Shown piece by piece: positions 5,938 to 51,254 of a stretch of 64,000 bases of DNA. Origin of the DNA: Gigantopelta aegis. Taxonomy: Eukaryota; Mollusca; Gastropoda; Neomphalida; Peltospiridae. A program made the translations under genes and the position numbers. A model generated the notes under the pieces. It had not been told where the DNA came from, did not search any database, and was given only the letters and a program-made list of their open reading frames with translations. The stretch is taken from NCBI RefSeq assembly GCF_016097555.1, contig NC_054701.1, positions 59,269,037 through 59,333,036 on the forward strand. The letters run 5' to 3'. The first letter of the stretch is position 1; every line of letters begins with the position of its first letter.

Positions 5938-6137
5938 TTTTGATGGTCCCTTAAAATAGAAATAAAATAAAAATGGAAGCAAACATGTAGACCAATGCAA
6001 ATATTTCAATAAATTTTGGATTTTAAATTCTGTTGGGGATAAATCAACTGGTAACCCCATGGATGTAAAACTACAGAAGCTTAGTTCCTGTATTCTCTAT
6101 ATTACACGAAAATGTCCATGTAGGTCGTGAAAAACTC

Positions 6138-6326
6138 TTAGTTTTCTGATCGACTTGTCGGGGGGCGTGGTGTGCGCCTGACAGCCGAGCTGCGAGAAGA
6201 CAGCGAGCTCCGGGAACTCCGTCCATAGTTCTGAACACTGCCCCGACCAAACATCGAAGCACTGTTCCGTCCCCGTGGTAACGGTGGTTTAGCACTGGTA
6301 GGGAGCATCCTCGATTGTTTCGTGTC
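6138..6326 (-). CDS. exon O, last coding exon, two possible frames
   Basis: The acceptor is 'gtatttatag'. Read in phase 0, as when exon M joins directly, it encodes 62 residues rich in Arg, Ser and Pro (for example 'GRSSRSSLSSRSSAVRR' and 'RTPRPPTSRSEN') and ends at TAA 6138-6140. Read in phase 1, as when exon N is included, it gives only HETIEDAPYQC and stops at 6289-6291. The composition of the long frame matches the rest of the tail, so the long frame is very probably used in at least some transcripts. Confidence 0.7.
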   Translation of the reverse strand, partial: DTKQSRMLPTSAKPPLPRGRNSASMFGRGSVQNYGRSSRSSLSSRSSAVRRTPRPPTSRSEN

Positions 6327-9300
6327 CTATAAATACAACACAAATAAATTTACTAAAAATTAATATCAGAACAAAAATTTTAGAAATTAACAACAACTAC
6401 ACATTCTTATTTTATAAGCTAAACCACTACCAGTGTTCGAGAATAACAGTATCCCGATATCCCGGGGATACCAGAATTTAATTTTGGATACCAGACTTCA
6501 ATAACCCAGTATCCCACCGGGATACTGTATAATGTTGTTGGGTTTTTTAATCCTGCGTTTTTCTTTTTCGCTGAAACAATGAAAGTCGTCATTTACTGGT
6601 GAAGTTAAGTAACATTGTCGTCTGAGTTTGTTACAATGTTATTTATAAATTTCATTTAAGTGGGATACTAAATTCTTAGGTGGGATACTAGATTTTGAAA
6701 TGTTAGTATCCAACTGGGATACTGCCCAAAAGTTTTAATCTCGAACACTGACTACCACCTTGTAAGTATCAAACCCGACCATTTTTATTAAAGGCAGTAA
6801 GAATAATTGGAAACTGACCATTTTTATTAAAGGCAGTAAGAATAATTGGAAACTGACCATTTTTATCAATGGCAGTAAGAATAATTGGAAACTGACCATT
6901 TTTATCAATGGCAGTAAGAATAATTGGAAGTTATCAGGCAGTAAGAATAATTGGAAACTGACCATTTTTATCAATGGCAGTAAGAATAATTGGAAACAAA
7001 CCATTTTTATCAATGGCAGTAAGAATAATTGGAAACAAACCATTTTTATCAATGGCAGTAAGAATAATTGGAAACAAACCATTTTTATCAATGGCAGTAA
7101 GAATAATTGGAAACTGACCATTTTTATTAAAGGCAGTAAGAATAATTGGAAACTGACCATTTTTATTAAAGGCAGTAAGAATAATTGGAAACTGACCATT
7201 TTTATCAATGGCATTAAGAATAATTGGAAACAAGACCATTTTTATCAATGGCATTTAGTATCTTTGGAAATATCATTCATAAATTTTTGACTTGCAGTTT
7301 TGAAATAATATGTACAAGTATTATGACAGCACATAGGTTAATTGTTTGTATATTCCATGACACTTCAAATCCTGATACCAGATTCAAACACTGCTTTTAC
7401 AGGTCTCATGCATCACTTTAATGTACACAAAAAAAGTTTTGTTTTTTTAAAGTTGGTTTTGCTAACAACTCCACTGAACACATTGATTTATTAATCATTG
7501 ATTATTGGATGTCAAACATTTGGTAATTTTTATATATATATATATATGTAGTCTTAGAGAGGAAACTTGCTACATTTTTCCATTAGTAGCAAGGGATCTT
7601 TTATAGGCACCATCCCACAGACAGATACCAATGTCTTTGATACACAGAATATTCAAGCTACATGCATGCTTATTGTAAGACTTTTCTTCTTTTTTTCAAA
7701 TAATTTTCCTTACCGAAATTACAGCACCAGAATGCATATTCAAAAAGACTGCATGCATGATTAGTGTTTTGAACATACAAAACACGTCTAACGTGCACAC
7801 TGATACAAATACTGGATGCAATAATACCACTGACAGCATGCTTCAAATGAAATGTTTGTGTCACTGAGTATTTTGACAAAATAGAATGTGTTCCTGATAC
7901 AAAAACAAAACATACTGTTGTAGTGCAGACAATGTGCTTGTGACACATACAATGCTTAATATTAAACAACTCCAAAACAAGAAAAACTTCTAGAAATTAA
8001 ACATATCCCTGTTCTTAAAAGCAAGAAAGTTAGTATGTTTTGTTTAACGACACCACTAAAGCACCATGATTTGATAAATCATCGGCAACTGGATGTCAAA
8101 CATATGATAATTCTAACACGTAGTCTTTGGAGGAAACCCGCTACATTCCTGCATTAGCAGCAAGGAATCCAATATGTGAACTTTTCCAGGGCAGAACAGC
8201 ACATACCATGGCATTGTGATATAGCAGAGGTTCTGGTCGGGATGGGATGAAAGCAACAGAAGTCTGAGGAATATTCCATGGCATAATCACATCAGAGTAA
8301 CAATACTTCCAGTGTATTATAAGTTTTTTTGTTGTTGTTGTTGTTGGGGTGTTGTTGTTGTTGGGGTTTTTTTTTTTGGGGGGGGGGGTTGGGGGGGTTG
8401 ATTTATTTTTATTACAGATAATTACTGTTACTAGCTTATTTTTTATTTACTACTAGCATAACATTTACATGTATTAGCTACTGTCCTTAAAATAATAAAC
8501 ATATTTGGAAACCCTGTCCTTTATTGACATTTTACCAAATCTGTTAGTTGCTCTATATTAATACTGGCAGCTATAAACTGAAACATTATATATGAAATAG
8601 TATAATAATTGCTTTTCAAAGAATACCAAAAAAGCAAAGAAAAGCCGAATTTTGTTTTTTAAAATCAAATCTACAATGGGTACAATCCTTATGGAAAGCA
8701 GCTTGTACGGAATAAATTCATATTTTTTCTATTTACTAAAATAGTCAAATATAATAGTACAAATAAACCCATCACTTTATGGTACTAAATATGACATTAC
8801 CATTTTTGCAACATGACATACTTTAAATAGAACTTGCTTCATCTGTGTCATGCAACTAGTACTAAAACATTGTGCATTTTATGGTCACCTGGTTGCCCAG
8901 GCAAGTGAAAACAATATCGGGCGAGTCAAAACCGTATCGTGAGTTGTCAGTCTGACGACCACAATTTTGGGTTTTCATTACAGCAAATTATTTCAGAATG
9001 CCCAAAATGTAATGTTTGTAAAACAACCAAAAAGTTTCTTTTGATAATAATTCAAGATGCATATACCCATTTAACTGATCTCCTATGCCAAATACATTTA
9101 CTCTTTTAAAGTTTTTAAAAAAATAAAATCGGGCAACTCAAAAATTGCACAGGCAAGTCAAAGTGCTGACATGACTCACCCAAATGGCAAGTAAAAAAAA
9201 AATCCCAAGTGCACACCCTGCTAAAATGTTTAGTTGTGAAATTTTATTCCTTTACTAACTTCTTTTAATTAATTAAGGAATTAAAAAACAAAAAACACCT

Positions 9301-12300: not shown

Positions 12301-15300
12301 TACCTGTGGAACCGACTGAGAGAGTTGTCTTCCTTGAATAGTAGACTGAAATCCCTGTGGTGGAGGAATCAAGGGGCCACTCTCCAACTCATCCTCCTCA
12401 GCAATGCATGGCTGCATATAATTGTCAGCATTCCCATCATCATATGTGTCCTCACCTTCCATTGGCTGTGACTTGTCACCTGTTTTCTGTGGGGAGCTGG
12501 CAGGAACGTCCTGAGTCCCGACTGAATATCCATTTACAACCGGATCTTCATCAGCCGACTCACCAGCATGTCTGTAAAAGCAAAAGTCAATTATCATGTA
12601 ACAACTAGACCCTCATCAGCCGACTCATTAGCATGTCTGTGAAAGCAAAGATCAATTACCATGTAACAACTAGACCCTCATCAGCCGACTCATTAGCATG
12701 TCTGTGAAAGCAAAGATCAATTACCATGTAACAACTAGACCCTCATCAGCCGACTCACCAGCATGTCTGTGAAAGCAAAGATCAATTACCATGTAACAAC
12801 TAGACCCTCATCAGCCAACTCATTAGCATGTCTGTGAAAGCAAAGATCAATTACCATGTAACAACTAGACCCTCATCAGCCGACTCACCAGCATGTCTGT
12901 GAAAGCAAAGATCAATTACCATGTAACAACTAGACCCTCATCAGCCGACTCATTAGCATGTCTGTGAAAGCAAAGATCAATTACCATGTAACAACTAGAT
13001 CCTCATCAGCCGACTCACCAGCATGTCTGTGAAAGCAAAGATCAATTACCATGTAACAACTAGACCCTCATCAGCCGACTCACCAGCATGTCTGTGAAAG
13101 CAAAGATCAATTACCATGTAACAACTAGACCCTCATCAGCCGACTCATTAGCATGTCTGTGAAAGCAAAGATCAATTACCATGTAACAACTAGATCCTCA
13201 TCAGCCGACTCACCAGCATGTCTGTGAAAGCAAAGATCAATTACCATGTAACAACTAGACCCTCATCAGCCGACTCATTAGCATGTCTGTGAAAGCAAAG
13301 ATCAATTACCATGTAACAACTAGACCCTCATCAGCCGACTCATTAGCATGTCTGTGAAAGCAAAGATCAATTACCATGTAACAACTAGATCCTCATCAGC
13401 CGACTCACCAGCATGTCTGTGAAAGCAAAGATCAATTACCATGTAACAACTAGACCCTCATCAGCCGACTCATTAGCATGTCTGTGAAAGCAAAGATCAA
13501 TTACCATGTAACAACTAGACCCTCATCAGCCGACTCATTAGCATGTCTGTGAAAGCAAAGATCAATTACCATGTAACAACTAGATCCTCACCAGCCGACT
13601 CACCAGCATGTCTGTGAAAGCAAAGATCAATTACCATGTAACAACTAGACCCTCATCAGCCGACTCATTAGCATGTCTGTGAAAGCAAAGATCAATTACC
13701 ATGTAACAACTAGACCCTCATCAGCCGACTCATTAGCATGTCTGTGAAAGCAAAGATCAATTACCATGTAACAACCATATTGCAGTATTGCACATCATAT
13801 GTAACTCTTTACTGTAACATACACATTTAACTGCTATGGGCAACAAATAACCTGCAGGCTGAGATAATACACTGTTTATATCATTTTTATTAGAAAATGG
13901 CAATGGGGACCAATATGATCTAACAGCAACGTAGGCATTCCCCAATAAATAGTGATTCCTTGTTCATTAATTCGTATAATAAATATTTCCTCTTTTTTCT
14001 TGTCACACACAGTAGACTCACTCCTCTTCAAAAGACCACAATTCATTTGCTTTTGTTCAGAGGATAGCACTTGAGGAGTGCAGTTTTAAAAAACCGAAAG
14101 TTTGCTACTGTACCGTGGTTCATGATACTGTGGTTCGTGTTTGGAGATCCGCGGCCCCGAAGGGAGGCCAGACTGAACCCTGCCCTGTTGCTGTCCCTGA
14201 GGGAAGGGATGAAGAGGTGCAGCATATCCTCGGGGCTGGGGGATGTCCAGTGGGTTCTGGGGTGGAGACTTCGTGTCTTGCTCTTTGTCAAGTCTTTTCT
14301 TCTTTTTCTTCTTTTCGGCTTTCTCAAACCTGTCTCCGTTTGGTGGTTTCGGAGCATTTGGAAGTGGAGTAAGCATTGGTGGAGGCTGTATTCTTCTGCC
14401 CTCAAGGATTCCTACAAATTTATCAATTAATTACATAATATAAGCAAAACTAACAAAAATTAATTGCAAATTTCAGCTAAATATTAAATGCTAATATCAA
14501 ATCCTAGTATAAATTTGACATCATAATCACCAATTTTTACAAACTTTTGTAGGATAATTGGCACCTTTAGGACCCAAATTACTGATAATTACTTTTACAG
14601 ATAGTGTTAACAAAGTTTCACTTCATTGGCACGAACTCATTCACTCAAATATCTGATATTTTCAATATTTCACCTAAAGGCTTGCGGCCAAATTTACAAA
14701 GCCTATTTATGTCTTACACGTGTAACTACAAACATTTACAATGCTAAGACACCTGCGTTAAAGAAAAACAGCCCTTGGTGTTTATACCATATTAAGCTCA
14801 TCTGAATAGTTTACGATAAATATAATACGTATCGGTATCAGTACAATTATAGCAGATACTGAAAAGAACAACAAAGTTAAAACAGCCATTGATAATTGTC
14901 ATTATGTATCAGTGTCTGTTAAATGGGTTTTTATAGTAAAAATAATGCTTATTTCCATGCCCGTGATTGATTAAGTAAATGAGAAATAACATCTAATCTA
15001 TAACTGCATTAACAAGTACAGCCGATTCGACTCATAAAAATATTTTTTGGACAAAAAACAAGGATAACTAAGATATTTTGACTGGTATTTGTCGTAACAC
15101 ACCAGGTGGCTTGGTGCCTCCAGAATTTGGTCGGTTTGCTTCATCTGGACTCGTGCCGCGTGGACCAGACTTTCCACTCGGCTGATCCGAACCACTCGAT
15201 AGGGGAGGACTGCCGACTTGTTCCCGCTCCCGACTCCGTGCTCTAGGGGGCGCCACTGGGTGGTCCCTGGCCCCTGGGTGTGCTGGAAGTGGCACGTGCT

Positions 15301-16571: not shown

Positions 16572-19500
16572 ATAATTGTTTTTTTTGTTTTTTATTATTT
16601 AACATTTAAATTGACCATTCATGTTTTCTTATTTATGCTTACTTCAGTGTCCTTTGGCTAGTCGCAAATCTGAGTCACCCAGAATTGGGCTTCTATTCCA
16701 GTTTGGTGTTACAATGTATAAAAAGCATGGCAATATATTTGTATTTTGCATAAAGACAGCTGACAATAAGTGTCAATAGCAATCACACAAAACTTTATTA
16801 GAACTGTAGTGGTGTTTGTATTCTGCGTCAGTTAATGATATTATAATATGGTACGGAAAGACGGCTGCTTTAATAACTTTTGCTTAACCCTCCTTCAGTA
16901 TTAACAGGAGATTCTAAGAATCCAACATATGTGGCCAACAAGGGATAGAAAAAGTACACACAAAATGAAGTCCCAGGGTCGAAATTTCTAATATCAAGGG
17001 TGAACTGTTTCTATCTCACATTACTGTATAATTATGATGGATTTTGTTTTTCTCATCCATTTAGTAAATAAACTGTTATTTTACATGAACAGACAAAGAT
17101 GGCTGAAAAGGTAACTTCTTTATTTTACCATGTTAACATAAATAAACTATCATATTTACCCTGTTTCATGCATTACACACAATTTACTGTTAAATAAAAT
17201 TTAACACTATAAATTAAAAAATAATAATTATAAGGCAGGTATTAATCACAAAATATCAATCTAAAACTGTTGTCTGATGACCTCAGGACTTCTGCCTGAC
17301 TTTCAAGCGATGAAGTTGTGTTTAGAGAGCGTGGAGATTTCTCTCCCCCCCCCCCCCCCCCACCCTAGGGGCTGTGCTTCGATCGCTTGGGCCATTGTCC
17401 AAGTATCGGATCGAGCACAATGGCGACTCGGCGACCGTCACACTATTATACAGCAGTGACAGGAAGCAACCTACAACCAGCAGAAGACGGAGGAGGTGAC
17501 CCAAGACTTCGCAGGGGGGACCTAACTTGGCGGCTCAACCGCCAAGGGTGGTCCCACCTGTCCCGAAGAGGAGGGCGAGACCAGGAGCGGCGCAGGGTGA
17601 TCCAAACCCGGTGGCTCAACCACCGGGGGCGGTTCATTCTGCTCAACCGAGTTTACCTGCTCGACCGAAGCACTCGCCAGGAAAGACCCTGGGGGGACCA
17701 AAGCTGTCAGCTCCACTGACAGTGGCGGCCCCTTCTGTTGATCTACCGACTACTATGGACACGGGCCACGTGGTTATTGATCAGCCACCGGCAAGTCCAC
17801 CACTACCTCCGGTAGTTGTTGTTGAACCCACGGCGGTCCAGCGAGAATCCAAGAGGAGGAAGATGTCATCAGTCACCGCACCGAAGATGTCCGACGATTG
17901 GATTCTTGTCTGTGACAAACTTCTGGCAAAATATAAAGGAGCGGTAATCGGTGATTTACCGACCCCAAACATCTGAAGGGACCCTGGTCAGACAAGCACT
18001 GGCGCCAACTTCCAACAGGACAAGGGAAGTACCAGCTCCAGGAGTCCCCTCACGCAAACCAAACCTATGTGACAGCACAGCAGGACGGGTTGTACAGACA
18101 AGGACTCCTGATGCCTACGATGCCCAACGCGACCATTCATCGCATCTTAAAGATGGTACTGCGGGACATCTACACAGAAGCCCTTGAACGTAACACACAG
18201 TTTCTGATGGAAGGACTCCCCAACTTCTGCCCTGATCAGCCCATCAACTCACCATGAGTCCTGCTGCGCCAACCTTAACTAGGACAGGTAACCTCCTTTT
18301 TGGGCTTAGTTGGACTTTAAACATTTTTCGATCGAGCTTCCAAATTCTTATGTTTATTTTTTTATAAATAGTCCAACGCATTTTACTTTGGCGCCCGTTC
18401 AATTGCTCAAATCACCTTAAAACCTTTTCGGCCGAGCAGTCAAACTTATTTTTGGGTTTAAATTCTTAGTCCGGACATGATGTTAGGTGCAGGTATTCTC
18501 CGTAGACTTAGGTTTTTCTAGTTAGACCCGAAGGAATCGAAATTCAGCCAGTCAGAACACGGCCCATTTTCGGTGTCTACTAATCGGTCCGCGCAGTCGC
18601 TGGACGCTACTAAATACTTATTCCAAATTCCGCCCACTTCAAACTCAATCCCCCCCCCCCCCCCCTTGTCCTGGACTTAGTCACTGGCAAAGGCCAGAGA
18701 TTAAGCCCAGGACAGGCGTGCGTGAAACCTTCGTGGTATATATGCACGTTAATACTTTTATGAATGAATGATGACCTCACATCACCATCTCGATTTAATA
18801 TTACGTCATGTATTACCAACGACGTCATGTTAAGTGCAAGCACTTGATATCCCATGAAAGACAGAAATTTATTTCATAGCTTTCTTTTATGGGATAGCTC
18901 TGTCCTATATATCTGAGGATAAGAGAAACAGCTTTCATAGCTTTCATTCATGGGATAGCTCTGTCCTATATATCTGAGGATGAGAGAAACAGTGTTTATA
19001 GCTTGCATTCATGGGATAGCTCGGTCCTATATATGAGGATAAGACAAACACTTTCATAGCTTTCTTTCATGGGATAGCTCTGTCCTATATATTTGAGGAT
19101 GAGAGAAACAGCTTTCATAGCTTTCTTTCATGGGATAGCTCTGTCCTATATATCTGAGGATGAGACAAACAGCTTTCATAGCTTTCTTTTATGGGATAGC
19201 TCTGTCCTATATGTCCTATATATCCGAGGATGAGAGAAACAGCTTTCATAGCTTTCTTTTGTGGGATAGCTCTGTACTATATATTTGAGGATGAGAGAAA
19301 CACTTTCATAGCTTTCTTTCGTGGAATAGCTCTGTCCTATATATCCTAGGATGAGAAAAACAGCTTTAATAGTTTTCTTTCATGGGATAGCTCTGTCCTA
19401 TATATCCTAGGATGAGAGACACTTTCATAGGATAACTCTGTCCTATATATCCTAGGATGAGAGACACACTTTCATAGGATAACTCTGTCCTATATATCCT

Positions 19501-22156
19501 AGGATGAGAGAAACACTTTCATAGCTTTATTTCATAGGATAGCTCTATCTCGTACACTTAAGGATGAGAGAAATGTCCCCTTTACATACTGACCTGTGGG
19601 TATGAGACCGCTGCCATGTGTGGGGTTCTGTAGCGTGGAGGTGGACAGGGTCGCATGGGTAGTGGTTGAGTTTGTCCAGTCACGGTCGGCGATTTCGGTC
19701 GTGCCTCGTCGTCATCAATGTCAGAAACGTCCATCCCACCCACGCTGACGGCATCAACATCTTCATCAACTGCTTCCTCACCTGATAGAATGGGAAAATT
19801 CATTTCTGCAAACATACTGACCAATATACTAATGAGTTACTCTTTATTAGTTAAACTGATAGTTATTTTGGCAACCTCATGAAATGGAATTATTTTTTAT
19901 ATGAAGCCAATGGGGAAGGGAAGGGGGTAGATCTGATAATTTTGTGAAATAAGTTTAATTTTAAAAGTTTATTTACAATAAATCCATATGGCTACTTAAG
20001 ACGAATACTCAATATGCTTCAGCAAAATAACATTTAAAGAAGTATTAATTCCTGAGATAAATGTTTTTTTGTCCAAACATTATGAGAAAATATTCATGTA
20101 TGATGTGGACCGCTTTTTTAAAACACTTACACTGAGTAATGTCAAATAATTTGTATGAATAACCACGAAAAGCACATGCTTATTAATTAAAACTGAACAG
20201 TTTTTATATTTTATGTCTGGGTCCCAAGAAGCAACCTTACCATATTGTTCATCAGTGAGCATGGCACTCTCTTCTCGACCATTGTTATAAAACGCCATTC
20301 CTGAGGCCCTCTTCGTATCAATGCTCACCTGAAAGCAAGTAAGTTAGGTCTCAAAACAAATTAAATAATTAAAACAAGTAAGCTAAAACCAGCTACAAAC
20401 CTGAGTCAATATTAAAGCCCCGGTCACACAGTCAAGGATCGTCTGGCCGGATCGACGACGGATGAAAACCTCACGGATGACCCCGGATAGTGGTGTATCC
20501 GCCGTCCCCTACGGATGCACCACGGTTTAACTGCGGTTTTCAATGGATAAACCAAGGATTTTTAAGGATAGGGGTTTGTTGACAATGGGGAGCGCTACGG
20601 GTCGCTATGGATCACTAAGGTACGGTAGAGTTTAGTACGGACCACAGCGGATTGTCACGAATGATGCCGGATCGTATCCATGGCTAACCCGGCGTCCTGA
20701 TCCTTGACAGTGTGACCGGGGCTTAAGAAAAAAACTAAAAGAATCACAAGATTCTGCTCAGTACATAACCAAATACTTACAGAATAGTGACAAAATAGTA
20801 ACATTCCAAATATGACAGAACCTATTGACTACAGTATATGACAGAACGAATTGACCAATGAATATGAAAGAACCTTTTAATAAAACGACGTTTTGATTAA
20901 GTATGACAGAACGTTTTGATCAATTACTGTGACAGAACCATTTGTCGAAATAATATGACAGAACCTTTTGACTAAATAAAATAAAACAGCCACTATCAAA
21001 GAAATTGACAGTCTTCATGTTAATTGTACTTTTAATCAGTAAGACACCTGAATTCAGATTCAGACAGATTTTGATGTCAGTATTATACTTACAAAATGTT
21101 GATCATATTCAGTGGTTTATATCCCATAGACTTAAAATTTTCGGGAAAACTCAATGGTTTAAGAAAAAGACTGTTTATAACATGTTTTCCATATTGGTTT
21201 CCTCATCTACCTCAAAACCGCTTACTTAGCCAATTTAGGGTTATCATGTGTATTCGGTCATTTTTCCTAACTACTTTCCATATTAACCTCTATTCTCTCC
21301 TTCTTTCTCTCCTTCCCTGCACTGTTCACCGCCCTCTCTGCGTTCACCGTTAGTGACGGGTCACCCTGTTGTGAGGTAGACAGACTCTTGGCTCTTCTGG
21401 TAATAGGAAGACGACCTGTTCTCGGACGTTTCGGAGGGTGAGGGGGGGTGATTGGCGTGGTGTTTCCCGATTTCCCCTTCCAGCTCTGTAACAACAAAGA
21501 ACACGTTATTATTTAGAACATTTATGAGGTCTGAAAGTTGCGTCTGTTCCATCACAAAATGTTAGTATGACCATATTTTATGCCGCTGTTTTATGCCTGT
21601 GCCTACATAAGCTGCGTTAGCTGCAAGGTGTAACTAATCCTTTTCCTTTCTTTTTCTTCTAGAGGTTGTGAAGAGCTAGTTTTGAGAAACCAATCATATA
21701 CAATTATATTAATGAACACGGACCTGTCAACCCTCCCGGATTCTGCGGGAAATTGTTATTTTCTAAGCATAATTTTTTTTAAAGCTACCGTAGCTGTGTA
21801 CTGACATTGAGTGTTGCAATATATAAAACTATCCAATTTAGTCCTAATAACGCCTCAAACTTGTAAAATGTCTTCCCACTAAGCTTACATAATGCAAAAT
21901 TCTATGGCTGGAAATGCAGAGTTGACAGCCACCACATGCATCAATACATACGATGTCAAAATCACACGTCAAAGCAAGACAATGAAAATACCAAGAAGCC
22001 ATATAGACAATACTTGTATTAGCCAGATTTGTAGGTTTGTGCAGTAAAATGTTGGCAACAAGAGTACACTTCACGGGAATCTTAACATTTTTGGACAAAA
22101 GAGTTATTTTTAAAAATATGTATTAAATCATATTTAAATATTAAAAAAAAAAAAAT

Positions 22157-22209
<53 letters not shown>

Positions 22210-25200
22210 AATTAATTATTTCATTTATTATTTTAATGCCAAGATCTAAGGTTGACAAGTATACATGACATTATGTAGTGTTCATATAACTTATTGTAAT
22301 ACTTTTTAAAAACTTGTGTTAAATCGTGTACATTTAAAAATTCTCCTGCTTTTTCAACACACACCTCCTGCTTTCTCTTGACTAAAGGTTGACAGGTCTG
22401 TGAACACATTGTACGTAGTATTAGTCAACAATAATGTGGTTTCATGAAGCTAACAAGCATTCACAATTAACAATTTGGATTAAAAAAAACTAAATAATAA
22501 TAATAATAAATTTATCACCCTTATTACATAAAATGTATATAGCACACATGCTTCTGTGATAACGATTTCTTACACTTTCTCTGCTGTTGTAGAAGTCCGG
22601 GTGCATCTGCATGTCTCCATTCACGAGGCTGATGTTGTCGATTAAACCCATGCCCTTGGATACAGTGGCGCCCCGGTTGTTGGAGAGACGTTGTCGCTGA
22701 TGGGACATGAGAATCAGCTGGCAGTAGTGCAGCTGTTGATTTCTAGCATAGTTCCATGCCGTGGCGCCCAGGTGATCTTCCACATTTAGATCAACTGACA
22801 AGACAAAAAACCCTGATTAACCCTTGTAGATTCATAGCTGCACAGAGAATGAACTCTATAACCAACCTCTGCAGTGTAATGGACTATTCACTGGATTCAA
22901 GGTTAGTAGTCATACTGGGTCCGTGCCCCACCTCATGCAATGCGTGTGTGCGTTATACTTTAACATGCTCATATACCACAAATGTTTCGAGCATGTCCGC
23001 CCCAGGGTTCGGCCTCTGGGAGGCCAGGGACCCAATCCGGGCCAGATCCTCATGCAATGGAGGATTGTTCTTTCCAATACCAAAGCCTACCCAGAGTGAG
23101 TGTACTGCTAGAGTTTCACCCAGTTAATGGGTGCAATTATGGGAGTGTCTCCCAAGTGTATGACCCCAAACAGGAGTGTCTCCCAAGTGTATGACCCCAA
23201 ATGGGAGCATCTCCCAAGTGTATGACCCCAAATGGGAGTGTCTCCCAAGTGTATGACCCCAAATGGGAGTGTCTCCCAAATGTATGACTCCAAATGGGAG
23301 TGTCTCCCAAGTGTATGACCCCCCAAATAGGAGTGTTTCCCAAGTGTATGACCCCCAAATGGGAGTGTCTCCCAAGTGTATGACCCTAAAATGGGAGTGT
23401 GTCCCAAGTGTATGACCCCAAATGGGAGTGTCTCCCAAGTGTATGACCCCAAATGGGAGTGTTTCCCCAAGTGTATGACCCCAAATGGGAGTGTTTCCCC
23501 AAGTGTATGACCCCAAATGGGAGTGTCTCTCAAGTGTATGACCACAAATGGGAGTGTCTCCCAAGTGTATGACCCCAAATTGGAGAGGATTACTCAGCAG
23601 GTAGTAAGGGTTTCTTGTACACCAGGGGACCTAGACCAGTGGTAAAGCGCTCGCTTGATGCATGGTCGGTTTGGGATCGATTCCTGTCGGTGGGCCCATT
23701 GGGCTATTTCTCGTTCCAGCCAGTGCACCACGACTGGTATATCAAAGGCTGTAGTATGTCCTCTCCTGTCTGTGGGATGGTGCATATAAAAGATCCCTTG
23801 CTACTAATGGAAAAATGTAGCAGGTTTTCTGACTACATGTGTATATGTCAAATTTACCAAATGTTTGACATCCAATAGCCGATGATTAATAAATCAATGT
23901 GTTCTGGTGGATTCGTTAAACAAAACAAACTTTAACCTTGTACAACAGGCTTGGATGACACCGAGATAACCCTACTGACAGCAAGCGTGGAACACTGCCC
24001 AGTCATGTATTCCTACACCGGAAAGGTGATCTCATTATCATTGTCTATATACACATCTATAATGTCCTAACCAAAAATGTCTTTGTCTTCGTGTTACATA
24101 TTTGAGGCAAATAAAAAAAAGAAGATTCTTTTGCAAATTATTAGATAACAGCAAGAACTAATGCACTGTAACAAACTTACTGCCCTGTTCCAGCAAGAAG
24201 TTGACCACATCGCCATGTCCACCTATCGTTGCCAGGTGCAGCGCCGTCTGCCCATTGTTGTCACGGTCAAGAACGCAGGTTTTGTCTGCAATTTCCATGA
24301 TTACCCGACAAGCTGCCAATGAACCTACAAAAATTATATAAATAAAACATTTAATTACAATATAAAGTGGCCTTTCTCCATATTTATATAATATGTACAT
24401 GATATCTGTAGATGACTGATGTTTCTGTATTCCTTCACCCACCCCTCTAAACTGGACACCCACAGGACCAAGTAAAAAGTCTATAGTCCGTCCCATCATC
24501 CGACAAAAATTATTTATGTAAATAATTTCAGTTTTGTTTGACATAAAAGTAAAAGTAACTGAAATGTGGAAAGGAATATTTGTTTATAGCGACACCTCAG
24601 CACATTTTAAAAGGAAATAACAACAAAATACTATTTTTGTGTGCAATTTAGAAAACAACTGGCTCAGAAATAAATAACTTGTTCTTTGTGGGACAGACTA
24701 TAGTTGTAAGATGTCTTCGGTTTAGAGTGTTTTTGGCTTTGAGGATCCAGTTTCATTGAATATATTTTCAGGCAATACTTTGCTGGGTCATTTTTAGGAC
24801 AATTACCAGATGATAAGCAAACAAATAACTGGGCTAGCTCTGGCACTCGCCAAATTCACCAATTGCAAATTTTTGAAAGCAATTTTACTTTAGTTTGGCG
24901 AAATAATTTCATGTAATAATTGACATTTTTTAGAAAATAAATGACAATTTCTGCAAATTTTTAAAGTTTAATAGACAATTTAACAAATTGTTTTGCTCAG
25001 CTAGAGCTAGCCCAGATTAATATAAACAAACTCATTACCCATTTCTGCAGCAACATGTAGTACTGTTTTGCCATAAACGTCTTTGAGTGTAGCTGTACTA
25101 GCTGTCAACAATGTCTGAAATACACAAGAACATAGCACAAACATGACAAAAAAATTTAAATAATGATTATTTTAGACTGCCCGATCAAAAATGCGACCAA

Positions 25201-28200
25201 AAAATAAGATTATATTTTATCAATTACAATATTAATATTTGAAATGCGCACAAAAATTACTTAAAGTCCCCATAACAAATTTTGGATATAAAAATCAAAA
25301 TTACCCCTCTCATATACTCTGTCCAAGATCAGGCCGCTGGCTTTCCAGAGATGGGACCTGGCATAAACATGCTTAAAAGCCTAGTGGTATAGGAGCATGT
25401 TAAAACTATCATACATACATACAAACATGACCAGGAACTGCAATACAATACTTGTAGGTTACTCAATACGTTGTATTCCAGGACTCCAAGAATTGAAAAT
25501 TTGCATAATCCATCAACGGGTTGCAAAAAAACAAAACATTCAGGTAACCCATTTTGTGTTTAGGTAATCCATCATGACCATGTAAATGATGTCACAAATT
25601 CAATGTGTGAACCAAAAATGGGTTACGTAAACTATATTTACTCAAGTGACGCGAGAACGGAACTATCGCTCTTGCAATTAACTATATTTACTCAAGCGAT
25701 GCGAGAACGAAACTATCGCTCTTGCAATTAACTATATTTACTCAAGCGATGCGAGAACGAAACTATCGCTCTTGCAATTAACTATATTTACTCAAGCGAC
25801 GCGAGAACGAAACTATCGCTCTTGCAATTAACTATATTTACTCAAGCGACGCGAGAACGGAACCATCGCTCTTGAAATTAACTATATTTACTCAAGCGAC
25901 GCGAGAACGGAACCATCGCTCTTGCAATTAACTATATTTACTCAAGCGACGCGAGAACGGAACCATCGCTCTTGAAATTAACTATATTTACTCAAGCGAC
26001 GCGAGAACGGAACCATCGCTCTTGCAATTAACTATATTTACTCAAGTGACGCGAGAACGGAACCATCGCTCTTGCAATTAACTATATTTACTCAAGTGAC
26101 GCGAGAACGGAACCATCGCTCTTGCAATTAACTATATTTACTCAAGTGACGCGAGAACGAAACTATCGCTCTTGCAATTAACTATATTTACTCAAGTGAC
26201 GCGAGAACGAAACTATCGCTTTTGCAATTAACTATATTTACTCAAGTGACGCGAGAACGGAACCATCGCTTTTGCAATTAACTATATTTACTCAAGTGAC
26301 GCGAGAACGAAACTATCGCTTTTGCAATTAACTATATTTACTCAAGTGAGGCGAGAACGAAACTATCGCTCTTGCAATTAACTATATTTACTCCAGCGAC
26401 GCGAGAACGAAACTATCGCTCTTGCAATTAACTATATTTACTCAAGCGACGCGAGAACGAAACTATCGCTCTTGCAATTAACTATATTTACTCAAGCGAC
26501 GCGAGAACGAAACTATAGCTCTTGCAATTTTCAGAGGCCAGTATTCCTTTGAGAATAGAAGCCAGGGGATATACACTGGTGGCACCTAACTCTGCGCACC
26601 TAAGCATTTGTGTTATATTTTAAAGTTAAAATATTTCTTTAAAAATATTTGTTTTACCGCCACAGTACAATGGAACAATAAACGTGTTACAACTAAAGTT
26701 ATTTTAATTTTAATGTTTTTTAAACTCAAGTAATGAGCACATTTTTAGTGGGACCCCCCTGCATTTACTGGCCTGCATGACAGCACATAACTCTGCGCAG
26801 CAAACATTAAAACAACCACTTCTGTCGCTAATGTTTACATAAAACAGCAACAAACAATGGATCCGACTTTTTATAAGTTCTAAATAATAAACACTTCCTG
26901 TTATAGTCTGTTTCAGAAACATTTAGATTGTGCAAATGAGATAAATATAAATGGTGTTCCATGCTCCTTAGTTTGGATAACACAAAATGACAATATTAAA
27001 AAAAGCCAATGTAAAAAATATTTGATCATTATTCAACAAAAATTGTCTATTATTAACTGTGTAAATGAGCACAAATAGTGTTCGTTAGACATATAGGACA
27101 ATCAATGATAATTTTAAAACAGACTATAGCTAAAATAGGCTATGCTGTCAGTGCAATTTTCAAAGTCTGTGTGCAGCCATTTTGCATTGTGTCAATCGGA
27201 GGGAAATTCAAAGTATGCTTGGATGTTTACGTTAACAGATAAAATAAGACATTCATTTCATTTATGGATTCATAAATTACAATAAGGTATGTATTGAAGC
27301 TTCTATGTAAACTTGTGTCAGTTGATATACAAGGTTGATCATTACAACGTTGACAGACACGTGTTGACAGGTGATACAAAAACATGTTGATTGAGGCTGG
27401 CAAAAGTATACTTTTAGTGCATTAATTCAGTTTTTTTCAATAAAAGTGTTATCGACCAGTTTTATACATATATTCACAATCAAGATGTGTTGTTTTAACA
27501 ACAGTTTTGTGAATTAAATTAACATTTTTGTTTGTTTACAAACATACCCCGACACTTGTTTCAAGACGTAATGTAACGTCATTAACATGTGCAGACCTTT
27601 CTGCCACGCAGACTAAGGTGACATATGAGTGTATATTTATAATGTTAATAAACATCAAGTTGGATAACAAGCACCATGTACACAGGTTGGGCAAAAAGGT
27701 CATACTGAAAAGTTACCCCCATCCAAAAGACCCTTCATGTGTTGTTCCTGGCTGTTGTGCTTGAGTGTCAATATGCTAACAAAATACTAACAAATATGAC
27801 TTATCGTCATAAACGATATCTAAATCTTACATATTTTTCTGTTATATAATGAGGTTAAGGCTTAATGTTTATGGAAATTATGCTATCATTATTTTTATCC
27901 AATTTGTGAGTAATATTACTAACAGAGTAAGTACGAAAACAAAAGGTGAAATAAACATTGTTATATTAAATGTACACAATGTACCATTTTCAGTTATCTG
28001 TCAGGATGTACACGCATGTTGCAATAGCTATAATAATGATGATAAATCATTTTTAATATGGCCATTGTTGTACCATTTCTCCATAAATCTTAAGATTTTC
28101 CTTGATTATTCTTGTTTTAAATTGGAGATACACTTTGCATGTATGTACAATAAATATATTGAAGAAATATTTTGAACTTCGAAAGCAGACATTCTTCAAA

Positions 28201-31200
28201 TAGGGTGGCTATTGCTATTGCTGTGAGGTAACAGAAGAAAGGTTTTTTTAACCTTCTGACTACTGAAGGCGAGATATCTCGCCCGAAGTCACAACAGTCG
28301 ATATACAGTGCATTCCCCAATTCATATTTCCTGCCATTTTGCACATGGCACTCACCGGAAATATTAATATAACAACAGGAAACAGTTTAGTTTAGAGTAT
28401 GATTGCTTTAGTTTTTAGTTTTCCATGAAAAATACCTTGGAATTTTTAGTTCAAAACATGGTTTTCTGCAAGTAGGCCTATTTTCACTTAACAACAATGG
28501 CGACACATCACAGTCATTTTCAGAGATCGATAGCTGATTGTGACAGCTAATTTGATAATAAATTTGACCGTTTTACCAAAAACAAAATCACCAAATATTA
28601 GGATAAGAATCGTAAATAATTTTTTTAAACAAATTCTGGTCAGAAAACCACTATTATTGATAAATACTGGACAATCTGGCAACAAATGCCTGTAAGTAAA
28701 CGCGACTTTTAAAAACAAATTGCCTAATTTTAATCAACATTAACTGATCTAAAATATCCTAAAAATTAGAAAAACCCACGAAAATAATACTTACCAATTG
28801 AAATATGAACTTTATTTTATGTATTTATAAATAAATTTAAGTGAAAATATACGAGTCAAAATTATAAGCTTGTACCCCCTCAACGTGGTTTTTGTCAATA
28901 ATTAATCGAGTAATGAGAATGTTAAAGAATACCTGGAGACATTCGAGAGGCTCAGTCCTGCGGACGGACCAGTGCATCCACGTGCGCTGTGAGTTATCTC
29001 GCTCTATGCCGTCCGGTTCGGCCACGTAGCAGGTCTCACACCGACTGATCAGTTCGAAGTGCTTGATGTTGTCCATTCGGCACGCCCACATTGACGGGGT
29101 CAGGCCGTCCTGGTCGCGGACACCCACGTTGGCCAGCCGCTCCAGAAGTAACTGAAATGTGGAAAGGAATATATTGGTTCATAACGACACCTCGGCACAT
29201 TTTAAAACTACAGCTGTTTAAATGTCTAGACAATGGCTATTTCAACGCATGGTCGAGAAGAGAGAGAGACAGCATATAATTAGTTACATGCTTATAACAG
29301 GTCAACTACTAAGCAATGCTGATAATATATTGTATGTGTTGTATTATACACAATTTTTATGTAATCCTTCTCGAGACCATAGAATAAGTTCAACTGTCAT
29401 TGCAGGCCAAGAGGAACACTTTGTGAAGAAGCGTGTGTGTGTGTGTGTAGGTGGGGGGGGGGGGGGGGAGGGGAGGGTGCACTTGCTGTAGCTAGGTGGG
29501 GACACAAATACATTTTAATGCTTTGTAATAATGTAATTATATAATAGCAGTGTTTCTGCCAGAAAGAAATTTTAGGGTGTGGCGCTATGGAATTGAATGC
29601 AACCACAGTCAACAAGGGGTATGGAGGGCCTCCCCCAGAAAGAAAATGGGTTACGGTTAGGGTTAGGGTTAAGAAAATCATACATTAATGATAAGAGTAA
29701 TTAATTTTGTCAAAAGGTTAACGTTAAAAAATAAATCTGCAAAAAAATCTGGGTATGGCACCATACCCATTTTACCCTCTGGCAGAAACCCTGAATAGGA
29801 TCAAAAAAACTTTTGCCCCTCGCCCTCCCTCCATCCCTAGTTTCTACCGGCCTGCATTGACATGCAACTAACAATAAACATATAATTTAGTTGTGAAACC
29901 AAAATATTTTGAGTTCTTTCTTTAATGAGCTGTTGCCAAGATTAAAAGCAATGTTTGCCCATACAAAGCAACAGCAGCAAACTCACAGTAAGACATTCAT
30001 GGCTAGGTGTCGTAACGGCCCAGTGGATGGGTGCCCTGTCATTGGTGTCCTGGACACTGAAGTCGCCACCGTAGTCAAGAAGCAAACTCAGTGCAACATG
30101 GTTGCCATCATGACAGGCCCTGTGAAGAGCTGTTGAGCCATCTGAAATACAACAACAAAATTTTAAAAATAAATTTTAAAAATAATAGTAATGTCAAGTT
30201 AATTAAAACCGGCCTCGGTGGTGTCGTGGTTAAGCCATCAGACATAAGGCTTGTCGGTTCCACCCAAAGTGAGTTTTAACGACTCAGTGCGTAGGTGTAA
30301 GGCCACTACAAACTCTTTTCTGTCACTAACCACTAACAACTAACAACTAACCCACTGTCCTGGACAGACAGCCCAGGTAGTTGAAGTGTGTGCCTAGGAC
30401 AGTGTGTTTGAAACGTAATTAGATATAAGCACGAAAATAATTTGAAATGAAAGTTATTTAAGGCATCACTTATTTTGTCTCGATCAATATGCAAAGTCCA
30501 TTTGCCTTCTAATTCTTACACCATATATATACATAGCTGGCATTTTATAAATAGACAAGACCAATAAAACAAACCTTATGAATGAACCATGCTGGCCATG
30601 GGTGTGGGTTTGGATGTGGGGTTGGGGGTTGGCCAGTGTACATTTTTAAACTGTTTATGCACACCTAGGATGAGGGAGGAGGGTACACATAGCTGATCAA
30701 AGTACTCTGTGAAAATGCTCCAATCTACATGTACAATACAGCAATATAGTTCTACTCAGAAATAACACATTGGGTATTCGAAAAGCAGAAAGGGGCATGA
30801 TGTAGCCCAGTGGTAAAGCACTCGCTCGATGCGCGGTTAATCTGGGATCGATCCCCGTCGGTGGGCCTATTGGGCTATTTCTTGTTCCAGCCAGTGCCCC
30901 ACGACTGGTATATCAAAGGCCGTGGTATGTACTACCTTGTCTGTGGGATGATGCATATAAAAGATCCCTTGCTGCTAATCGAAAAGTGTAGCCCATGAAG
31001 TGGTGACAGCGGGTTTCCTCTCTCAATATCTGTGTGGTCCTTAACCATATAATCAAAAATAAAATGTGTTGAGTGCATCATTAAATAAAACATTTCTTTC
31101 TTACTTAGAAATAACACATTGGGTGGTATTCTAAAAGCAGAAGCCATAAAATATAACAGACAAAGGACATCAATGACTTTCAAGACTATGTGTCATAATT

Positions 31201-40200: not shown

Positions 40201-43200
40201 TCGGTCTACAGGCTGGTAGGTACTGGGTTCGGATCCCAGTTGAAGCATGGGATTTTTAATCCAGATACCAACTCCAAACCCTGAGTGAGTGCTCCGCAAG
40301 GCTCAATGGGTAGGTGTAAAGCATTTGCACCGACCAGTGATCCATAACTGGTTCAACAAAGGCAATGGTTTGTGCTATCCTGCCAGTGGGAAGCGCAAAT
40401 AAAAGATCCCCTACTGCCTGTCGTAAAAGAGTAGCCTATGAGGCAACAGCAGGTTTCCTCTAAAAAACAGTGTCAGAATGACCATATGTTTGATGTCCAA
40501 TAGCCGATGATGAGATGATGAGAGAAAAAAATCAATGTGTTTTAGTGGCGTCATTAAATAAAACAAACTTTACTTTACTTTTCAATGCCTGAAAATCTAG
40601 CTAAATAGAAAGCAAAACGACTTTACCAACAGGGATTAAATTTAACAGCAGCCATGTGGTAAATTGCCACAATGCACTTATCATATGCTCCAATACCCTG
40701 CAAATTAAACAGAGTATCATGATCAAACTGGCTGGTCCTTATTTTGCATGTAAGTAATTGGTCAATAAACTCATGAAACTATTAAAACTTATTGATTTTG
40801 AATGGGTGCTGGTGTGTTAAATTATGTTTGCCATGTGCACTCTGGCAGTAATTAATGCCTCCACAAAATCTCCATCGGTCTAGACCAAATGGCCTCGCCA
40901 TTTTATTTGCCAAATTCGAGGCACCACCCATCTACATGTACCTAGTATTCCTGTTCTAGCACACATCGAAATATGCAATTTGTCAGGTAACCCATGTACA
41001 GGTTACCATAAATTACAGATCTGATAACATAAAGTTTAGTTTGTTTAACGACACCACTAGAGCACACTGATTTATTACTCATCAACTAATTGATATTAAA
41101 CATTTTATAATTTTGACATATAGTCTTAGAGACGAAACCCACTACATTTTTCCATTAGCAACAAAGGATCTTTTATATGCACCATCCCAAAGACAGGAGA
41201 GCACATACCACAGCCTTTGATAAACCAGTCGTGGTGCACTGGAATTAGAAATAGCCCAATGGGCCCACTGACAGGGATTGATCCCAGACTGACTGTGCAT
41301 CAGGCAAGTGCTTTACCATTAGGTAACATCCCACCCCACCTCCCTTGTAACATATAGGTTACCACATTTATATTTCTATTATTACTATAAAATACCTTCA
41401 CAGACAAGCTAATACTTTGTTATTTATTTGGGCGCGACATAGCTCAGTGGTAAAGCGCTCACTTGATGCGTGATCGGTTTGGGATCGACCCCCCGTCAGT
41501 GGGCCTATTGGGCTATTTCTCATTTCAGTCAGTGCACCACGACTGGTATACGAGGTAACCTCCTGGTAACTACAACAACCGTTCTCGACTTATTTTGATG
41601 CCTATTCTACTAATTAAATAAAACTGTGTCTAACCCATGGCACTATCTAATGGTAATCAATGGTAGTTTAAGCATAGCAGGTGCTTGCAAGTGTCTCCTA
41701 GTGCTTGAAACAACCAGCAAAACACTCTCCCAAGTAGTTCTGAGAATAGCAGATGTGGTCACATGGTCACAAGCATAATCTATCAGTGTAAATAGAGAGT
41801 TAAACAAAATGACCTCAACTGGAATACCTCGCCCAACACCACTGCACTAAAATCATGCAAAGATTTCCTACTGAAAACTACTGAGAGAAGGATGGAAAAT
41901 CAACACCAAAAACAACCAGTTGTTATTTAACACATAGCAGAGACCACAGTGTTTATGCTCCACAATTGTGACAATACTTGATGCATCTACATACGTATAG
42001 AGGATATTGCATGTTTTTGTGTCAAATATGATTTATATCTCATTCAGTGCTCCACAATTATACCAAGTGAGTCATTCTTGCATGACAAGGGTGATCCAAA
42101 ACTGCAGACTTCATAACATCAGAAATACAAGTAAATTATAAAAATATATGACATCACTTTCATCACTTTACCGGTACTTTAATTTTTCTTTTATTATATT
42201 ACTTCAATCATTTTACTTTCAAAACAAAAGCCTTAAGTCCACTGATTAATTAGTGTAAACCCTGTAAGTTAACAAACATGATTTCAAAATTTAATGAACT
42301 GTAAGTCGGTTTGCCATGATTTTTACCTACATGTGTAGGTGCTGCTCATCAAATATAAAGAAGAATTCCACATAATTAATGTCTCACCTACTATATTTAT
42401 TCAATGTCACAGATTTTTGCATCCACAGATGTTAATCTTCATGAATGTTTTAAAAACATTAAGGCTATAGTCCGTCTCATCATTCTATTAAAATGTTTTT
42501 TGTAAATAATTTCAGTTTGCTTTGAGTAAGACGAAAAGTAAAAGTGTTTTGGAAATAACAAAGAAATGCAATTTGTGTGTGCAATTTACAATCGGCTCGG
42601 AAATAAATAACTTGTAGTAAATTGCATAGTATGAAAAAAATGTGCTCGAACGTAAGAAGTTGTCTCCCACAGCAATTAAAAAAAAATTGCAGTTAGTGAA
42701 ATGGACCACCGACAGCAATTTAAAGCCTGCCCATGGCAATTGAAAAACGAGAAGACTTTTGTAGCAAAATAATAATACGGAAAGGTTATTTTGCTGTATG
42801 TAGACATATTTTAAATGTACTAAAGTTACATACTGGCAACTAATGTACATCAGATGAAAACATTTTGCCATTATTGGGGAGCTTTACCGACAGCACTTTT
42901 GTGCCATCGCTGACGCTCCCGGCCTATGGCAATTTATATCTCAACGACAGCAATTGCTGTCAGTGCCATCGTTAAGTTCAAGCCCTGGCGATGACATCAT
43001 AAATGCAGACCTGGAAATAATTTATTCAGTGGTGCCTGTCAAAATGTTCTATGTCCATCAATTTGATCCTGTCAAAAATTAAACTGTGCCTGTCAACCAA
43101 ATGTTAAAATAATATTTATATAAGCACATGGATTGGGGGTGGAGCATTTTGTTCATAATCAAATAAGTTGACGTTTCATCTGACTTTCTGACATGCTGCA

Positions 43201-46200
43201 ATTTCATTTGGAAATGAAATACAGTTGATATTTTTCTACGACGCCAAGTTGAAAAATTCATTTGGTTAAATATACATTTAAAAAATTACAACAGAAAAAA
43301 TAAATTCATGACTGCGATGAGGACAACAAAATGTCAACGAATTCCAATCATATTCGAAACTGAAATAACTTTATGATAACAAAGCACCTACTAAACATGT
43401 TAAATAATGTGTACTTTAGTTGAGCAAATTTCAAAATACCGAAATTTCAGTATTGAAAAATGTTTCTAGCCATTTAATAGCACTAAAAATATTACTGACG
43501 AATGCAAAAATTAACAAAAATGGGTTGGGTATAAATCAAATGAGAGCCATATGTATGGAATTTAATTTTATTTAGATCAAATTAGTGGGTGAGCCTAACT
43601 CGGGCATTCATTTAAAGCTGAGTCTACTGGAAATACCACTCAATATCAGTTATTGTGTCAATACTGAATACCGTACCAATACCATGGTAAATCACTCACA
43701 AACATACTGATACCAATACCGAACCTCAAATTTCAATACCACCCAGCTAGCTCTACAACTTATATTAAATAAACACAATGGCACTAGATTATTCTCCACT
43801 GTTCAATTTAGAAGGGTAAATTTTTGTGTTTTCCACATCGACTCATCAGGCTTGCTCGGGTCTATTAATAGACATGAAAAACACCATTCCCAGGCAAACA
43901 CAAAGATGTTCTAGCAACAGTTCCATCAACATGTGCATGCTGCATCATATGGTCAAAAAACTATATTAAATATGCATTTTAAAATGTACTGCATCGAACT
44001 GCTTCCAAACTAGTGCAAGGCACAAATTAAGTGAATATCTTTCTACGTTCATTTTGGACCACTTCAGTACAGAAGTGTCGGACAAAATGACCGCTAATAT
44101 TAAGTTTGTGACTATCAAAGCTTGACAAATGACAAATTTGTACCGGTCAACGACTGTGACCAACCACTTATTTCCAGGCTTGCAGAAATGAAAATAAAAA
44201 TGTTTCACCAAGTACGTGTAGGTGCATCAGTTATGCTACAGTCCACACTGTAGCCAAGATCAGTTTCATAGAGAACCAAGATCGAGGAACACTAATGGCA
44301 TGTATACTCTATATATACGTAAGGTCTTCCAAATTACTAGCAAAAATTATGCAAAATGTAAATAAATCTCATTGGTATCATTAATTAATTATTATGGATC
44401 AGTTTGGGATCATTCAACTATGGGTGTATTAACAAGCTTCCATTTGGTATCAAGTTTATGTCCTGAGTGAAATAATTTTCAATTGTCACAAGCTTTAGAA
44501 ATTGACAATGAAAATTATTTCACAAGGGACATAAACTTGATAATAAATAGTACTAGCAAGTTTATTACCCTATTTATTATCCATAATCGATCTTAATTGA
44601 TGCGCAGTCAGTCTGAGATTGATCCCCGTTGGTGGGCCCACTGGGTTATTTCTCATTCCAACCAGTGCACCATGACTGGCATGTCAAAGATCGAGGTATG
44701 TACTACCCTGTCTGTGGGATGGTGCATATAAAAGATCCCTTGCTGCTAATTGAAAAGAGTAGTCCATGAAGTGACAAAAGCGGGTTTCCTCTCTGAATAT
44801 CTGTGTGGTCCTAAACCATATTTCTGACGCCAAATAACCGTAAATAGTTTGTGGACAACGAAGTATCGTTCTTGACATTTTTGATACGAGGTAACCTCCT
44901 GGTAACTACAACAACCGTTCTCTGTGTCTAACCCATGGCACTATCTAATGGTAATCAATGGTAGTTTAAGCATAGCAGGTGCTTGCAAATGTCTCCTAGT
45001 GCTTGAAACAACCAGCAAAACACTCTCCCAAGTAGTTCTGAGAATAGCAGATGTGGTCACATGGTCACAAGCATAATCTATCAGTGTAAATAGAGAGTTA
45101 AACAAAATGACCTCAACTGGAATACCTCGCCCAACACCACTGCACTAAAATCATGCAAAGATTTCCTACTGAAAACTACTGAGAGAAGGATGGAAAATCA
45201 ACACCAAAACAAAAAAACAAAAAAACTAATTTTTTTATAATAATAAAATACAGTTGTTATTTAACACATAGCAGAGACCACAGTGTTTATGCTCCACAAT
45301 ACTTGATACATCTACATACGTATAGAGGATATTGCATGTTTTTGTGTCAAATATGATACAGTGGTCCACAATTATACCAAGTGAGTCATGCTTGCATGAC
45401 AAGGGTGATCCAAAACTGCAGACTTCATATCACCATGCAGAAATGCAAGTAAATTATAAAAATATATTACATCACTTTCATCACTTTCCCGGTAATTTAA
45501 TTTTTCTTTTATTACATTACTTCAATCATTTTACTTCCAAAAAACAAAAACCCTAAGTCCACTGATTAATTAGTGTAAACCCTGTAATTTAACAAACATG
45601 ATTTCAAAATTTAATGAACTGTAAGTTGACTTGCCATGATTTTTAACTAGGTGCTGCTCATCTAGTATTAAGAATTCCACATAATTAATGTTCCGCCTAC
45701 TATTGTTACAGATTGTTGCATTCAAAGATGTTTGTGACACCCAATAGCCGATGTGTATTATTGTGCTGGGGTGTCGTTAAATATTCATTCATTCCAAAGA
45801 TGTTAATCTTCATGCATGTTTTAAAAACAGTACGGCTATAGTCCGTCCCATCATTCTATTAAAATGTTTTTTGTAAATAATTTCAGTTTGCTTTGAATAA
45901 GACGAAAAGTAAAAGTGTTTTGGAAATAACAAAGAAATACAATTTGTGTGTGCAATTTACAATCGGCTCGGAAATAAATAACTTGTAGTAAATTGCATAG
46001 TACGGGGGGAAAAATGCGTTCTCTGTGGGACAAACTATAAGTTGAACAATTTTGCAGGAAATACATTTGCGATGACACCATAAATGCAGACCTGGAAATA
46101 ATTTGTTCAGTGGTGCCTGTCAAAATGTTCTATGTCAATCAATTTGAGCCTGTCAAAAATTAAACTGTGCCTGTCAACCAAATGTTAAAATAATATTACT

Positions 46201-49633: not shown

Positions 49634-49908
49634 CTGCAATCAAACAGAAATAACCTTTACTACTTTATTCTAATTTATAAATTTGTAATTTAATAGGTCT
49701 ATAACATTAACCATATCAGAAATAACTTTTACATCTTTATTATAATTTATACACTTGTAATTGAATAGGTCTATTACATTAAACATATCAGACTTTTCTT
49801 TGATACTGTCATCTGAGATTAATACAAAGTGGCTTAACATAGTATTTTGGTTAATAAAATTAAGTTTTTAATTGTCATTCTGTAATCTTTTTCAAAGAAA
49901 TATTCTAG

Positions 49909-50147
49909 CAGTGTTTCTGCAAGAAAGAGATTTTTTTGGGTACGGTGCTATGGATTTGAATGCAACCATAGTCAACAGGGGTTATGTAGGCCTATCTAGA
50001 AAGAAAATGGGTGTTAGGGTTAAGAAAATCATACAGTAATGATAAGAGTAATTAATTTTGTCAAAAGGTTAACTTAAAAAAACATAAAATCTGTAAAAAC
50101 ATTTGTATATGGCACCATACCCGTTTTACCAACTGTCAGAAACCCTG
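49909..50147. mobile_element. MITE family Y, copy 2
   Basis: 'cagtgtttctgcaagaaag' and 'gtcagaaaccctg' ends, interior as in copy 1. Flanks are TCTAG on the left and TCTAA on the right, a 5-bp duplication with one change. Confidence 0.75.
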
Positions 50148-50225
50148 TCTAAAATATCCAAAAATTGGCTAGAATAAAATTATTCCTAGAGTGAGCCCTG
50201 CAAAGTATGTTTTCTTATGACATTC

Positions 50226-50300: not shown

Positions 50301-51254
50301 TGAATCAATTGAAAGTTATGGGAGTTAAGCAGTTTTGTGGATAGGCTTTTATGAATTTTGACGGAATGATCCGAATGCTTGTCAAATTTTTTTAATAATA
50401 TGCACTGAATCTGAATTGAAGATATTCAGTCTAGGCTGCATTTAAATTCATGATATTTACAAATATTTCATAAATATCTGTGATAGCCAGAGTTATATGG
50501 CCTTTGCTTCTAAAGACAAACATGGCATCGACTTGATTTTATCTGTGGCCATTAGTAGAAATTGGTTGAAGTTGGTGCCGGACATTCTATCTGGGCCGAC
50601 CCAATTCAAAACCTGCCAAACCAAACATTATTGACTCATTAGTTTAATATGCGAATATAAATGTAAAATATTTGCAAAAAATATTTTTAAATATCCCTGC
50701 TGGCAAAAAGCACTTCCATTATTTTCTGATAGTGATAGAATTAAAAAGAATTAAAAAGAAATATTTTTGGGTACTCTTAATTAAATTTGTTTTGGTTATG
50801 AGAAAAAATTTAGTATATAAATAAAAATATGTTTTTGACTTATGTGTACATTGTATGTAGGTTTCACAAAACTACCTAAGGAACAAGTTGTAGGAATTCA
50901 TCTGCTAAAACTATCAAAAATTAGCAGGTAATTTTTCAAGGGACGGATGTATGTATGATTATCTCATCCACTAGTTTGATCCACATGGTTCTGTTAAATA
51001 TTTTAATTCCATAGCAGCCCTTAGGAACCAAGCAGGCCAGGAGACGAACATCAGGTGTGCAGAAAGTACACTCATCAAATCATTGCTGGTGTGTTTTGAA
51101 TAGATTGTTGTTAAATACTTGCAGGATATCATTGGAATTTTGTAATAATTATTATAATATTGTTAAAGAATAATATATTGTTCTATAGCCAGGCGGATTA
51201 GTAAAACTTCTGGCTGGCTAGTCAATGTTAGTTTGTTTTGGTTCGGCAGGCTAG

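Follow-up and report, generated by a model that had tools for sequence, protein, structure and literature searches.

What happens to a gene when the border of one of its own exons, 3′ splice site included, is multiplied in tandem just upstream of that exon? The question is raised by a predicted gene in a 64,000-nucleotide stretch of Gigantopelta aegis DNA (the window; positions are counted from its first base), where 18 copies of an acceptor segment lie ahead of the exon that we call M. The locus would amount to a natural test of acceptor choice, that is, of RNA order against exon context, because its 19 near-identical sites differ mainly in their position and in the sequence downstream of them. 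If exon M is spliced correctly despite 18 upstream acceptors, exon context would outweigh RNA order in vivo, the acceptor sequence being all but invariable; otherwise, copy number would be a heritable determinant of how much the gene yields. Both donor-bearing arrays and a single duplication of an acceptor border are already in print. The anatomy of the present array is clear, and its effect on splicing, for which we argue from sequence, is putative.

The host gene lies on the minus strand, from at least 49633 down to ~6130, and 14 exons were predicted on that strand, placed by splice motifs and open frames (Table 1). Their phases are in register across 13 junctions, and the frame ends at a stop codon in the last exon (Z, which we modelled with its end directly beyond that codon), for a total of 1025 codons. 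At exons A, E, G and H the donor was picked from two or three candidates as the one that preserves phase, so the phase chain is partly chosen at these exons; for exons L and M one donor each was considered. Exon M is open in a single phase, and its first base, A, completes the CG left by exon L (CGA, Arg). Within this presumptive gene model, these two properties would place the acceptor at 12571, in agreement with the earlier note on this DNA, whose assignment fits the chain of phases across the 14 predicted exons. A Pfam scan covering exon A and the stretch from exon D to exon G found ankyrin repeats across D to G (Ank_2, E 2.1e-36) and no family in exon A.

Table 1. Features of the array and of the neighbouring predicted exons (window positions; a slash marks a splice junction)
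Feature	Position	Strand	Description
Exon L (predicted)	14114..14411	-	donor CCACG/GTACAG; phase-consistent
GGTTGT at outer edge of array	13771..13776	-	repeats the GGTTGT of exon M (12536-12541); presumed 6-bp microhomology
Tandem array	12601..13770	-	18 x 65-bp units: pyrimidine tract, CAG and near-copies of the exon's first 36 bases
Border copy of unit	12536..12600	-	29 intronic + 36 exonic bases across the intron/exon M junction
Exon M (predicted)	12304..12571	-	268 nt; acceptor TTTTACAG/ACATGC; donor CCACAG/GTAAAT; placed by phase and frame
Donor-like CTG/GTGAGT inside exon M	12558..12566	-	8 nt past the acceptor; strong by the generic matrix
Last predicted coding exon (Z)	6130..6326	-	acceptor 6326; frame open from acceptor to stop

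The units were obtained by 65-base steps along the minus strand starting from 12601, and no gaps were needed up to 13770. They match their consensus at 61 to 65 of 65 positions (no mismatch in 10 units, one in 1, two in 3, three in 3 and four in 1); the next 65 bases upstream (13771-13835) mismatch it at 38 of 65. TRF reported a period of 65 with 18.9 copies at 12548-13775. The border copy agrees with the array consensus at 55 of 65 positions, and elsewhere in the window the best match to the consensus on either strand is 34/65, compared with a best of 37/65 in 50 mononucleotide shuffles. In its ungapped register and in this border identity the array bears out what the earlier note had described: homology to the exon M border, 18 copies, a unit divided into 36 exonic and 29 intronic bases, and a whole exon M acceptor segment in every unit, all 18 of them met by the transcript before the real one. 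Its structure is that of a minisatellite (head-to-tail units of roughly 10-100 bp in many copies), and a real splice border, as drawn by the predicted gene model, is repeated within its own gene's array. An exact 25-base piece of the unit gave 0 matches in viral contigs. Among the 18 units only five positions vary (37, 38, 44, 50 and 56), all in the exon-derived part; neither the intron-derived part nor the CAG shows any variation. An invariant acceptor half could hint at constraint, but recent expansion explains it equally well, and with so few variable positions in all the invariance is not evidence of constraint.

How good are these acceptors compared with the real one? The earlier note had held that most of the decoys have a better pyrimidine tract than exon M. 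In fact the unit acceptors are identical in all 18 (one distinct 23-mer), and the tract is no richer: counted by eye from the acceptor sequences, 12 of 16 bases are pyrimidines in both, with 10 T in exon M and 9 in the units. Scoring each unit, which it had also proposed, gave an answer that depends on the matrix, neither type being a validated splice model: the generic matrix, an approximation, slightly favours the units (9.18 against 8.97 for exon M), whereas the own-gene matrix, a rough one built on the gene's other 13 acceptors, favours exon M (8.61 against 4.81). The unit acceptors are comparable to exon M's, not better. AGs that equal or exceed the unit acceptor in score are also present elsewhere in the introns of the gene (108 of 1904 with the own-gene matrix, 25 of 1904 with the generic matrix), so misuse cannot be predicted simply from there being decoys.

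The sequence upstream of the acceptors was compared as well. The AG-free stretch is 31 bases long in exon M and in units 1 to 17, and 61 in unit 18; a branch-like motif lies at 16 nt in every case (TTGAC in exon M, TTGAT in all 18 units), and TTAC is found at 28 nt in exon M and units 1, 2 and 18. Since, among the gene's 14 real acceptors, those of D, E, G and J lack the five-base branch motif in their AG-free stretch, the branch-point scan does not discriminate. Exon M and the units being alike in AG-free stretch and branch-like motif, neither intrinsic strength nor RNA order clearly favours exon M. Folding of the RNA so as to hide the units was considered and rejected: of three segments folded, the two from the array fold no better than their shuffles (z 0.88 and 0.57), and the segment at the exon M border gave z -0.76.

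Two donor-like motifs bear on whether a unit might be closed as an exon of its own. The first, ATG/GTAAT, is present in every unit and is the potential closer of a 42-nt exon. By the generic matrix it is weak (4.84, against 8.03 for exon M's own donor); by the own-gene matrix, for which all 13 sites including exon M's donor were used in this case, it scores 6.92, near the 7.37 of exon M's donor scored leave-one-out, so that donor strength leaves room for 42-nt exons. This motif is lost in the border copy at exon M (ATGATAAT), and unit 1 is thus unable to close such an exon. From GTAATT to the following CAG, the donor-like and acceptor motifs both being present in the array, there are only 23 nt, less than the length of an ordinary intron; pairing of a unit donor with a more distant acceptor is possible. 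The second motif, CTG/GTGAG, lies 8 nt past the acceptor in the seven GG-type units (3, 5, 7, 8, 10, 13 and 16), AA destroying it in the other 11. It scores 8.44 (own-gene) and 10.32 (generic) and by the generic matrix outscores exon M's own donor; of 2451 GTs in introns beyond the array, just 4 do as well by that matrix. The counterpart inside exon M (Table 1) is a possible re-splicing site, which, joined to the last exon, would give an early stop.

Whichever way the units are joined in our models, the transcript's 18 near-copies of the real acceptor would probably break the protein if used. Splicing from exon L to a unit acceptor, with read-through into exon M, is predicted to meet a stop after 14 codons (unit 1) or 15 (the others) in 18/18 cases. 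A 42-nt unit exon joined to exon M keeps the frame and creates a stop at the join itself (TG/A; 17/17), an 8-nt unit exon shifts the frame and leads to a stop in 7/7, and the 11193 ways of combining from one to four unit exons (42 or 8 nt), among them adjacent units only 23 nt apart whose splicing is improbable, all fail to reach the normal stop. Over read-throughs and combinations together the early stops fall 8 to 15 codons beyond exon L, and with such a stop in every modelled use the protein would end ahead of the part that its last two coding exons encode. Multi-unit inclusion, which the earlier note had raised, is contradicted in silico as a way of diversifying the protein by these early stops (18/18 and 11193/11193); competition between acceptors or intron retention, which it had raised as well, may occur. 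The units as a coding cassette or as mutually exclusive exons were likewise rejected, with 0/18 read-throughs and 0/11193 combinations of one to four in frame to the normal stop.

A related array is known from a human gene. Intron 18 of ABCA7 contains a VNTR of 25-bp units, which starts with the donor of exon 18 and for which alleles of many lengths were measured; retention of one unit was observed and leads to a frameshift and premature stop (PMC5954066). As in our case, a tandem array contains a real splice site of its own gene, but the repeated real site is a donor in a 25-bp unit there and an acceptor in a 65-bp unit here; donor-like ATG/GTAAT (all units) and CTG/GTGAG (7/18) are also present in our array, beside the repeated real acceptor. 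The comparison bears on a reading in which the array is a poison-exon regulator: units would be used noticeably, each use would bring a premature stop, and copy number would set the fraction of full-length protein lost. The early stops of every modelled use, which fall upstream of the junction of exon M with the last exon, fit this reading, as do the 18 identical plausible acceptors that precede the real one and, in ABCA7, a correlation of VNTR length with exon 19 skipping and lower expression (PMC5954066). Yet one-unit retention there was unchanged with VNTR length (PMC5954066), and none of the tests that we ran points to selection for the array; we consider such a regulator unlikely. That the 18 serial identical acceptors form a poison array tunable by copy number, with unequal exchange altering gene output, seems to us distinctly unlikely.

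Other known systems resemble the locus in part. An interferon-induced transcript with a donor-bearing minisatellite is reportedly that of gene 6-16/IFI6. To go by the title of the paper on the human interferon-induced transcript, minisatellite units there supply several splice donor sites, so units carry splice sites in both cases, donors there and acceptors here. A model of intron gain, as outlined in a review, starts from tandem genomic duplication of an exonic segment with AGGT (PMC3443670); it shares with our array the multiplication of splice signals by tandem duplication, which here concerns a complete acceptor border instead. In a potato gene a single duplication spans an intron/exon border, and splicing of the new intron is borne out by RNA-Seq reads (PMC4974935). 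There, as here, the duplicate spans the 3′ intron/exon boundary with a putative branch site, pyrimidine tract, CAG and exon start, and the two potato copies differ at ten positions, as do the exon M copy and our consensus; unlike the potato gene, with its one duplication, our locus has 18 units, and modelled unit inclusion leads to a stop. DDX3Y was rejected as a precedent, since its minisatellite concerns the transcription start and not repeated acceptors. We recognised no acceptor-bearing array in the literature on the subject, which was covered mainly as titles and abstract openings with few subscription papers. What sets the locus apart from these precedents is an acceptor border multiplied 18-fold, with each modelled use predicted to be destructive; its absence from print is not established.

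We think it fairly probable that the array arose by tandem duplication at a microhomology followed by minisatellite expansion, that it has no selected role, and that it is tolerated because exon context favours exon M. The real exon M would prevail because it alone is both of ordinary length (268 nt) and followed by a good donor, the units defining only 42-nt or 8-nt exons or lengthening exon M by 65 nt each. As exon M is distinct by its length and its CCACAG/GTAAAT donor, we take exon definition to be the reason for the array's tolerance, which on general splicing knowledge is the likeliest explanation. Occasional use of a unit would bring a stop 8 to 15 codons past exon L and so lead either to mRNA decay, which we would expect on the basis of nonsense-mediated decay, or to a shortened protein that lacks what the last two coding exons encode.

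For the founding step, the GGTTGT at the outer edge of the array (Table 1) is presumed to mark microhomology at the duplication breakpoint, but could be chance. Outside the array region, register-matched runs of at least 6 at lag 65 occur at 341 of 62051 positions (0.55%); the score of a local alignment between the two array edges was reached by 289 of 2000 random pairs and is not significant. The register test was devised after the alignment test and judged a better fit to the question. GGTTGT in the intron would have been joined to GGTTGT near base 36 of exon M, doubling the intervening 65 bases, 3′ splice site included; the upstream copy would have drifted first and then grown to 18 near-identical units by unequal exchange or slippage, partly in three-unit blocks, so that the array would be a by-product of minisatellite growth. 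In gene order the units are of types AACAACAACABCABABAA, with 11 of 15 matches at period 3 (401 of 20000 shuffles equal this fraction at some period from 2 to 6), which suggests copying in blocks of three units. Type C has GG at 37/38 and A at 56 in common with exon M, from which it differs at 7 positions, and this likeness suggests that it may be the oldest type.

The order of events might also have been reversed, an intronic minisatellite coming first and its last unit being captured as the start of exon M, whose acceptor would then be array-derived. The geometry is symmetrical, homology ending 36 bases into the exon under both orders, and the exon M copy is the most diverged of all (10/65), as edge units of arrays often are. 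But the unit at the other edge (18) equals the consensus, the sequence that flanks the array upstream agrees for 6 bases with exon M and for 5 with the units, and the type C units share GG and A56 with exon M, as expected of an older state; although no one of these points is decisive, we regard an array that preceded its exon border as very unlikely. Near-identical tandem arrays are also easily mis-sized, and the locus could hold just a few border duplications, its present length being an effect of assembly. The distinct unit types in a non-trivial order, the clean 65-bp register and the further long arrays within the window argue against this, and we think it highly improbable.

Returning to duplication followed by expansion, five larger arrays lie within the host gene (period 31-65, 9 or more copies), and a rough estimate puts at 0.14 the probability that one or more of five random seeds would straddle a splice junction, so the position of the array needs no special cause. 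Another 18-copy array, with a 50-bp unit and 97% matches, occupies 25630-26529 in intron D-E, 516 bases from the nearest exon edge. A compound array of 61-bp and 47-bp units (18872-19524) lies in the intron after exon J, 70 bases off J's donor side, and intronic minisatellites with 31-bp and 39-bp units are found in the host gene at 23139-23585 and 6777-7253. Intron A-B contains two collinear similar blocks, 41624-44007 and 44922-47924, which lie 3.3 to 3.9 kb apart and are 99.3% identical over 292 bp and 86-88% identical over two neighbouring pieces. Dispersed repeats of ~250 to 315 bp, 80-88% identical and possibly transposable elements, also occur in the window (29539-29793, 49900-50152 and 51251-51510; 30802-31102 and 53142-53456; 23640-23934 and 41030-41318).
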